Positions 253 to 63,100 of a stretch of DNA of 64,000 nucleotides are shown one piece after another. Position numbers and translations under genes: made by a program. The stretch spans positions 1 to 64,000 of the forward strand of contig JADGDX010000011.1 of NCBI GenBank assembly GCA_016744675.1, written 5' to 3'. The notes below the pieces were generated by a model. It saw nothing but the letters and a program-made list of their open reading frames with translations, was not told where the DNA came from and searched no databases. The stretch comes from Desulfuromusa sp. GTDB lineage: Bacteria; Desulfobacterota; Desulfuromonadia; Desulfuromonadales; Geopsychrobacteraceae. Numbering within the stretch: the first letter of the stretch is position 1; each line of letters starts with the position of its first letter.

Positions 253-340
253 TGGCGGATGGCCAGGGATTCGAACCCCGGGAGAGTTGCCCCTCAATAG
301 TTTTCAAGACTACCGCCTTAAGCCACTCGGCCAGCCATCC
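253..340 (-). tRNA. tRNA-Ser (anticodon UGA) with encoded CCA
   Basis: Reverse complement GGATGGCTGGCCGAGTGGCTTAAGGCGGTAGTCTTGAAAACTATTGAGGGGCAACTCTCCCGGGGTTCGAATCCCTGGCCATCCGCCA; acceptor stem GGATGGC/GCCATCC, loop CTTGAAA (UGA), long variable arm. Confidence 0.96.
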
Positions 341-30077: not shown

Positions 30078-30196
30078 TTAAGCAAAAAATTCTGCCCTAT
30101 AAGACTTGTCACTTTTCAGGAATGATGACAGACATATTGAATGTCGAGATCCTGAAAAAATACCGTGACACCACACGGGAGACTTTTCCCGCGGCC
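30078..30196 (-). repeat. Intergenic nested-palindrome element, copy A (fliL-fliM gap)
   Basis: TTTTCAGG(30113-30120)/CCTGAAAA(30151-30158) enclosing GACAT(30131-30135)-ATTGA-ATGTC(30141-30145). Confidence 0.8.
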
Positions 30197-30197
30197 T

Positions 30198-30722
30198 TTA
30201 TTGGACAACAAAATCGGTAAAATAGATCCGCTTGACTTTCCCTTTGGGCAAAATACTATTCACCTTATTAATCAATTCGGCCTTCAACTGAATTTTCCCT
30301 TGCAAATCGCTTACTTCGCCAAAGGTTTTGCTCCCAATCAACAGCAAAATAGCATCTTTCAGCTGTGGCATTCGCTGGTTGAGTTCCATCGATGTTTCTT
30401 CACTATCAACTTCAACGGTGATCGATGCTTTGAGGTAACGGCTTTCCTCATCATCCATAATATTAATAATGAAACTGTCAATGCTGACCATCGGCCCAAC
30501 CTGCTTGGCCTGTTTTTCTAGTTCAGCCTGCTCCTCCTCAGGAGATATTTTTTCCTCTTCCTCGCCCCCCATCAAGAAAAAATAGCCCGCTCCACCACCA
30601 ATCAGAAGAATTAATACTGCGGCAATAATGATAATGAGCTTCTTTTTTGATCCACCACCTTCTTCAGATTCTTCTGCTTCTTCTTTTTTTGCCATTGTTT
30701 TACCTTTCTTATTTTCCTTCAA
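30198..30722 (-). CDS. fliL: Flagellar basal body-associated protein FliL
   Basis: Single TM then SIDSFIINIMDDEESRYLKASITVEV; start likely MAKKEEAEE within the ORF. Confidence 0.92.
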   Translation of the reverse strand: MKENKKGKTMAKKEEAEESEEGGGSKKKLIIIIAAVLILLIGGGAGYFFLMGGEEEEKISPEEEQAELEKQAKQVGPMVSIDSFIINIMDDEESRYLKASITVEVDSEETSMELNQRMPQLKDAILLLIGSKTFGEVSDLQGKIQLKAELINKVNSILPKGKVKRIYFTDFVVQ

Positions 30723-42291: not shown

Positions 42292-42417
42292 GTGGCTAAG
42301 TTAAAATTTTGTCCTGCTAGGCAGAGTATTTTTTCAGGGGCGAAGGCATACAACAGTATGTCAAGATCATGAAAAAATACGACAACGCCGCAGGTCGAAA
42401 TTTTGGCGACGCCATCA
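42292..42417 (-). repeat. Intergenic nested-palindrome element, copy B (fliE-fliF gap)
   Basis: Perfect 11-bp stem GTATTTTTTCA(42326-42336)/TGAAAAAATAC(42370-42380), inner GCATAC-AACA-GTATGT(42346-42361), outer AAAATTTTGTCCTGC/GCAGGTCGAAATTTT. Starts in the fliE stop codon. Confidence 0.85.
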
Positions 42418-61777: not shown

Positions 61778-62941
61778 ATGAACATTCACGAATATCAGGC
61801 TAAAGCAATACTACGCAAATTCGGAGTTCCGGTTCCGGAAGGTCACGTAGTCTACAACAGTAACTCTGCCCGTGATTGGGCAAGGCGTTTAGGCGATGGC
61901 CCCTGGGCGGTCAAAGCTCAAATTCATGCTGGTGGTCGTGGCAAAGGTGGCGGTGTCAAAATTGCCAAAACTGCGGACGAAGTTAAGCAATATGCCAGAG
62001 ATATGTTTGGCATGACTCTCGTGACCCACCAGACCGGTCCAGAGGGAAAAATTGTTAAACGGGTTCTCATCGAAGAAGGAAGTAACATCGCTGATGAGTT
62101 CTATGTTTCTTTCCTCGTAGATCGTGCAACCGACAAAGTCACCCTCATGGCTTCTGCTGAAGGCGGCGTCAATATCGAAGAAGTTGCAGAGAAAACTCCT
62201 GAGAAACTTTTCTTTGAAGCTGTTGATCCTGTCGTTGGCCTGACTGCTTTTCAAGCACGTAAAGTGGCCTTCAAAATGGGCTTTGCCATCCCTCAGGTGA
62301 AACAGGCAGTTCCCATCCTGATAAATCTTTACAACGCATTCGTCGGATCAGACTGTTCACTTCTTGAAATAAACCCAATGATTCTGACTGCTGAAGGCAA
62401 TTTGCTCTGCCTCGATGCAAAACTCAACTTTGACGATAATGCTCTCTTCCGTCATCCAAATGTTCGTGACATGCGCGACTATGACGAAGAAGATCCAATG
62501 GAAATTGAAGCGGGTCAATACGACCTGTCTTACATTGCCCTGGACGGTAATATCGGCTGCATGGTGAACGGTGCTGGCTTGGCGATGGCAACGATGGATA
62601 TTATCCAACACTATGGATCGTCCCCTGCTAACTTCCTTGATGTCGGGGGCGGTGCAACCATAGAGCGTGTCACCGAAGCTTTCAAAATTATCCTTTCCGA
62701 CAGTAAAGTTGAAGGAATTCTGGTCAACATCTTCGGTGGAATCATGAAATGTGATGTCATCGCAACAGGTGTCGTCGAGGCCGCAAAACAGGTCGGCGTC
62801 AAAGTGCCATTGGTTGTTCGTCTCGAAGGAACCAATGTAGAGCTTGGCAAAAAGATCCTTGCAGAATCAGGTCTTGATATTGTCAGCGCTGATGGAATGG
62901 CCGATGCTGCTGAGAAGATTGTCAAAGCCGTCAACGGTTGA
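61778..62941 (+). CDS. sucC: Succinate-CoA ligase (ADP-forming) subunit beta
   Basis: [43 protein letters not shown]. Confidence 0.97.
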
Positions 62942-63064
62942 TGGCGTCGCAAAAATACTGACCTGCGCCGTTGCGGCATTTTTCGAGACCTTGACATACT
63001 TAGGTATGCCTTCACCCTCGAAAAAACACAGCGCCTTGCAGGACAAAATTTTTGCTTAGCCACC
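62939..63064 (+). repeat. Intergenic nested-palindrome element, copy C (sucC-sucD gap)
   Basis: Stem TTTTTCGAG(62979-62987)/CTCGAAAAA(63017-63025), inner CATAC-TTAG-GTATG, TGATGGCGTCGC overlapping the sucC stop; the 5'-3' sense sequence matches copy B. Confidence 0.85.
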
Positions 63065-63100
63065 GAATCAAAGATTCGAAAGAGTTAAGGAGAAATAACA

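Follow-up and report, generated by a model that had tools for sequence, protein, structure and literature searches.

A stop-codon-targeting miniature inverted-repeat element conserved in the operon gaps of one bacterial genus, where it most likely acts as a ribosome-coupled mRNA hairpin between genes

The gap between fliE and fliF in a contig of Desulfuromusa sp. holds a palindromic element that recurs in other gaps between co-directional genes, which raises the question of whether such an element is a mobile repeat, a part of the gene expression of its host, or both. The DNA in which this gap lies was analysed over a stretch of 64,000 nucleotides (the window), together with the rest of the genome and with related genomes. 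According to the original prediction, three elements (copies A, B and C) share one structural plan, and a covariance model bears this out, uniting them and a fourth copy, D, in one structured repeat family (E-values of about 1e-7 or better; Table 1). Copies B and C are about 81% identical in an alignment spanning the entire element, and the outer arms are degenerate in A and D. The z-scores for RNA folding were -3.1 for B, -4.3 for C and -3.5 for A. All four copies lie in co-directional gene gaps in the mRNA-sense direction, as had been claimed for the first three, and each begins where the upstream gene ends, at a stop codon that is TGA in B, C and D and TAA in A. Outside the window, the genome holds further copies between rho and rpmE, at a ferredoxin gene (whose stop TGA lies at the element), behind a YebC-like gene (a weak copy) and at a place without such a neighbour. 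This genome has some seven copies, and related genomes have from 0 to dozens each. It should be noted that raw counts are too high, since strong copies are also matched by the model on their reverse strand.

Table 1. Copies of the element in the window and the remnant of one right end.
Feature	Position	Strand	Context	Covariance model
Copy A, divergent	30079-30200	minus	fliL-fliM gap; begins at fliL TAA	45.7 bits
Copy B	42292-42417	minus	fliE-fliF gap; TGA is the fliE stop codon	121.8 bits
Copy C	62939-63063	plus	sucC-sucD gap; TGA is the sucC stop codon	122.2 bits
Right-end remnant of copy C (decayed terminal inverted repeat)	63064-63090	plus	compared with the consensus right end TTTTTGCGAAAGCATCA	
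Copy D, divergent	1800-1927	minus	between ORFs 1925-2500 and 431-1705; the upstream ORF ends in its TGA	36.3 bits, E 1e-7

The coordinates given for the copies cover less than the full element. Intact relatives are about 151 bp long (length cluster 150-153 bp) and continue for about 25 bases past the core, up to a right terminal inverted repeat ending in ...TTTTTGCGAAAGCATCA. The inverted repeats at both ends read TGATG(N3-4)CGCAAAAAG, i.e. TGATGN3-4CGCAAAAAG, so that the element runs from TGATG to CATCA. The core is a long imperfect hairpin with the mRNA-sense consensus TGATGGCGTCGCAAAAAGTCCGCCCTACnGCGTTGCAGCGnTTTTTCAGGACCTCGACATACnnATGTATGCCTTCGCCCCTGAAAAAnCACTACGCCTTGnAGGACGAAATTTTTGCTTAGCCAT. 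In the case of copy C, the decayed right end adjoins a retained TAAGGAG, which comprises the old stop codon and the sucD ribosome-binding site. The element contains no transposase gene and no conserved reading frame, its loop and stem lengths differing by 1 nt between copies. A small protein encoded directly after the TGA, reading ATGGCGTCGCAAAAA..., was considered and rejected because these 1-nt changes break the frame and early stops occur; read from its ATG, copy C gives ATG GCG TCG CAA AAA TAC TGA. No Rfam covariance model reached its gathering threshold at the window elements, and in four relatives none reached E<=1. Very different palindromic cores were also observed between the same ends (GATGG...TCGCAAAAA / TTTTTGCGA..CATC-like) at loci L045, L049, L097 and L121, which are left-end matches, and at L220 (for example, CGTCATTCCCGCGAAGGCGGGAATC in L121); one set of ends seems to carry different hairpins. 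A sister subfamily with the same ends and a core ACTCACCAACTGCTGCGTTGCCGC...CGACGTACGTTAGTACGCC is present in genome G024 (loci L193, L202 and L211), and copy D resembles it in the apical CGTAGC/GCTACG stem.

Mobility is shown by the inverted repeats at the ends, the duplicated targets, the existence of empty sites and the number of copies, and the suggestion that this is a non-autonomous mobile repeat thus holds. Among 109 sites, 56 copies had a matching 4-mer, and in 52 of these the target duplication has the form ANNNNT. The logo of the 56 sites is A-NNNN-T-R-R with a Y at -3, and the preferred target is ANNNN/TRR (the slash marks the insertion point), a form that allows stop codons to be readily entered. 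Since the first letters of the element are TGA and the insertion point lies directly in front of T-R-R, the stop is rebuilt in frame and the protein stays the same; the old stop and the ribosome-binding site of the next gene remain to the right of the inserted element. Of 163 copies, 60 provide with their TGA the end of a frame that is 80 codons or longer, and in the 20 of those whose right junction was readable the restored codon was a stop in 15 cases (TGA 8, TAG 4, TAA 3).

The family can thus be classed as a miniature inverted-repeat transposable element (MITE), and its hosts are Desulfuromonadales and Desulfobulbales. An exact left-end search of named genomes returned mainly records of these two groups, including Desulfuromusa, Geopsychrobacter, Pelovirga and Desulfocapsa, and a search of plasmids and phages gave no match. 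No autonomous partner transposon with the same ends was found among the loci examined, and the Y1, DDE_1 and rve transposase loci that were sampled are not flanked by such ends. Loci L073 and L142 were considered as candidates and rejected, as the long-range end pairs there enclose ordinary genes. Mobilisation by a RAYT/Y1 transposase was rejected too: among the Y1_Tnp loci examined, L410 was the only one with a copy, there was no association, and Y1 genes also occur in most genomes having 0-1 copies of the element.

Dozens of copies can be traced from an empty site through a fresh insertion and an inherited, conserved copy to a deletion scar. In the case of sucC-sucD, the empty site in element-free relatives reads GTCAACGGT/TAAGGAG, and the filled site in G000, G009 and G012 reads GTCAACGGT-TGATGGCG... 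followed by TAAGGAG or AAGGAG. These three genomes have a common decayed right end, which points to a single inherited insertion. The sucC-sucD gap of G006 (L160) holds a copy of opposite orientation at the same place and stop codon as copy C. In the case of fliE-fliF, the filled site in G058 reads CAGGTT/TGATGG...AGGTT/TAGGCTGG, with the old TAG at the right, and the empty site in its relatives G017 and G024 reads CAGGTC/TAGGTTGG, which begins with TAGG. Copies at this site are also present in G018 and in the window's genus, the site is empty in G053, there are scars in G051 and G054, and core-deleted remnants are found in G008 and G011. This pattern of presence and absence among the genomes suggests that different genera acquired separate insertions at the fliE stop codon. 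Core-deletion scars, in which the ends are kept and the hairpin is lost, were observed at L213, L218, L184, L235, L236 and L239 as well as in the fliE-fliF gap of G008, G011 and G054; one of them reads GATGGCGACGCCATC. The element-free fliE-fliF gaps of G024 and G017 (L375 and L377) contain tandem GGTAGTG units.

It had further been proposed that the repeat tolerates only one orientation. With gene calls made by a simple hexamer scheme, the 94 copies of the window's genus were distributed as +E+ 70, -E- 6, +E- 8 and -E+ 3, the remainder lying at contig ends; sense orientation thus occurs in 70 of the 76 co-directional copies. The rule also holds in G018 (17:1 sense to antisense) and G034 (10:2), and it breaks down in G024 (5:6), in the named records (20:17) and at the reversed sucC-sucD copy. 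These ratios are approximate, as the samples come from similarity lists rather than complete inventories and orthologous copies are not independent. The position is biased as well: 62 of the 70 sense copies start no more than 6 nt from the stop, where uniform placement would predict 17.4.

These observations could be explained by a purely selfish MITE, whose structure and sequence would be kept because it is only intact copies that transpose, and whose position at stops in the sense direction results from its choice of target and from the fact that in tight operons no other sites are tolerated. This explanation fits the intrinsic preference for a TRR on the right side, which persists away from genes and stops (28 of 37 copies), and also the variation in copy number from 0 to dozens, the existence of core-deletion scars and the lineages that do not follow the orientation rule. 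On the other hand, even in gaps of more than 60 nt 23 of 30 copies are located at the stop, against 3.1 expected. Furthermore, a copy without its right end is probably inactive, and nevertheless the cores of such copies are mostly 85-95% identical between species whose synonymous sites are near saturation, and compensatory changes have occurred in place. We therefore consider it unlikely, while still giving it some weight, that selfish transposition is the whole explanation.

The conservation in place can be quantified. In 31 orthologous pairs from the genus, the core is 88% identical, compared with 52% for the four-fold synonymous sites of the upstream gene and 64% for the next 40 nt. Paralogous copies within one genome have a mean identity of 82%, and non-orthologous copies from different genomes one of 80%. 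At sucC-sucD, the core is 85-91% identical and the four-fold sites on both flanks are about 35-68% identical, window by window. Recent recombination was rejected as the source of the high identity at sucC-sucD, because the four-fold sites have diverged on both sides. Pairwise comparisons at orthologous loci contained 37 double changes from one Watson-Crick pair to another, not all of them independent. Comparison within the window's genus shows that purifying selection has preserved the core, with compensatory base changes, whereas the right end has decayed. Conservation so far above that of silent gene positions suggests that the host now uses the element, and mobility and function both appear to apply.

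The covariation of the stems, noted at first in three copies, extends to the family. In an alignment of 46 copies with 39 pairs, 92.1% of the cells are paired, against 34.9-43.9% for slid versions; both sides have changed in 23 of the 39 pairs, against 9.5 in shuffles, and there are 108 double-change cells, against 30.3 in shuffles. RNAalifold returned just 9 pairs from a wide alignment because subfamilies were misaligned, and a narrower alignment (A3) was taken instead. The internal loops are fixed in sequence, e.g. GTC opposite TTA and GCGTT opposite GCCTT, and this makes it less likely that one arm has simply been copied onto the other. The predicted selection on the fold is thus supported by the covariation, by the compensatory changes at orthologous loci and by conservation far above that of synonymous sites.

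The strand on which this selection acts is less straightforward. The mismatched cells in the mRNA sense comprise 166 A.C against 20 G.U, or 48 against 18 when the nearly fixed C.A positions are left out. The same excess is seen among genus copies (97 A.C against 49 G.U) and in the deviations at orthologous loci (44 against 15). An A.C on the sense strand is a G.U on the other strand, and the opposite strand therefore folds better, which it does in 156 of 165 copies (103 of 107 strong and 53 of 58 weaker ones) in any gene context. If C were deaminated in excess on coding strands, the effect would be in the opposite direction. The A.C excess could reflect RNA made from the opposite strand, a stage as single-stranded DNA or an mRNA that tolerates weak hairpins only. 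It may be that the functional molecule is opposite-strand RNA or single-stranded DNA, whether as a hairpin directed antisense to the genes, as a terminator for antisense transcripts or as an intermediate of single-strand transposition. The greater stability of that strand speaks for this, as does the hairpin preceding the terminal T run, which averages -42.2 on the opposite strand against -33.3 on the sense strand. No promoter-like site was present in the three copies searched, however, the target duplication and terminal inverted repeats point to ordinary transposition of double-stranded DNA, and the count is raised by the four nearly fixed C.A positions, which have a common ancestry. On balance, we regard a functional molecule of this kind as unlikely.

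The reading that we prefer, and regard as probable, is that of a stop-codon-targeting MITE that is conserved in the operon gaps of the genus and most likely acts as a ribosome-coupled mRNA hairpin between genes. By analogy with ERIC elements, whose effect on the upstream mRNA in Yersinia depends on orientation and involves ribosomes and RNase E (PMC2229807), we infer that the function would be exerted at the mRNA level. The element enters a stop codon at ANNNN/TRR, generates the ANNNNT duplication and supplies its TGA as the new stop. A ribosome terminating on this TGA would then cover about the first 16 bases and open the outer stem; when the first 16 nt are hidden, sense folding loses about 12.7 kcal/mol on average. 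The opened hairpin may alter how the messages on either side of it are degraded or processed, an effect of the kind that has been reported for ERIC in Yersinia. Several observations count against this mechanism: the mRNA strand is the worse folder, and selection on an mRNA hairpin alone would not give the A.C excess; moreover, orientation is unbiased in other lineages, and no autonomous transposase was found among the loci sampled. A different effect on the mRNA would be that of an intrinsic terminator or attenuator, in which sense transcription would be halted at a TTTTTT run preceded by a small hairpin in the 5' half. Copies B and C do contain a terminator-like site, but over 83 copies this hairpin averages -2.45 kcal/mol, compared with -2.23 kcal/mol in shuffles, and reaches <=-4 in 19 of the 83, compared with 17% of the shuffles, which makes termination very improbable.

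Geobacter uraniireducens, a related bacterium, is the host of a MITE named Chunjie. Judging by the title of the 2008 report of Chen et al., Chunjie reportedly inserted in an operon without disturbing it. In the part of the literature consulted, its length is given as 178-235 bp (PMC10969869), as opposed to about 151 bp for the element described here, a comparison made by description only. Multicopy palindromic sequences have also been catalogued for Geobacter and Pelobacter genomes (PMC2700814, PMC2996986, PMC3543383). Like the present family, they are intergenic palindromic repeats of related bacteria; unlike it, they are, in the catalogue sections consulted, listed without a target site, a link to stop codons or orthologous conservation. 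The present family may already be among them, unlabelled in the supplements. The ERIC/IRU elements of enterobacteria (127 bp) are likewise short imperfect palindromes and MITEs transcribed with flanking genes. They differ in the target duplication, which is TA at the termini for ERIC and ANNNNT here, in the class of the host and in that the present element itself rebuilds the stop codon; it is by description that the two are set apart. The Correia/NEMIS elements of Neisseria are MITEs whose RNA hairpin is processed in the mRNA, but they have TA at the termini and RNase III sites, and the accounts consulted, in part, report no regeneration of stop codons.

Most bacterial MITEs are regarded as debris with anecdotal effects. 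The present element supplies the very stop codon that its insertion disrupts, and the protein is left unchanged. Whether one genus has domesticated a stop-targeting, stop-rebuilding transposon, turning it into conserved, structured intercistronic elements throughout the genome, with pairing selected locus by locus, possibly via the opposite strand, seems to us evenly balanced. How a mobile repeat turns into a regulatory element of an operon is a question that can be tested at sucC-sucD, fliE-fliF and rho-rpmE. For research on such hairpins, the asymmetry of mismatches between the two strands poses a specific puzzle. Separately from this family, the window contains a perfect 28-bp direct repeat (85-112 and 246-273, 161 bp apart), the second unit of which overlaps the end of a tRNA gene (256-340, minus strand); the pair is possibly a partial tRNA duplication or an attachment site.
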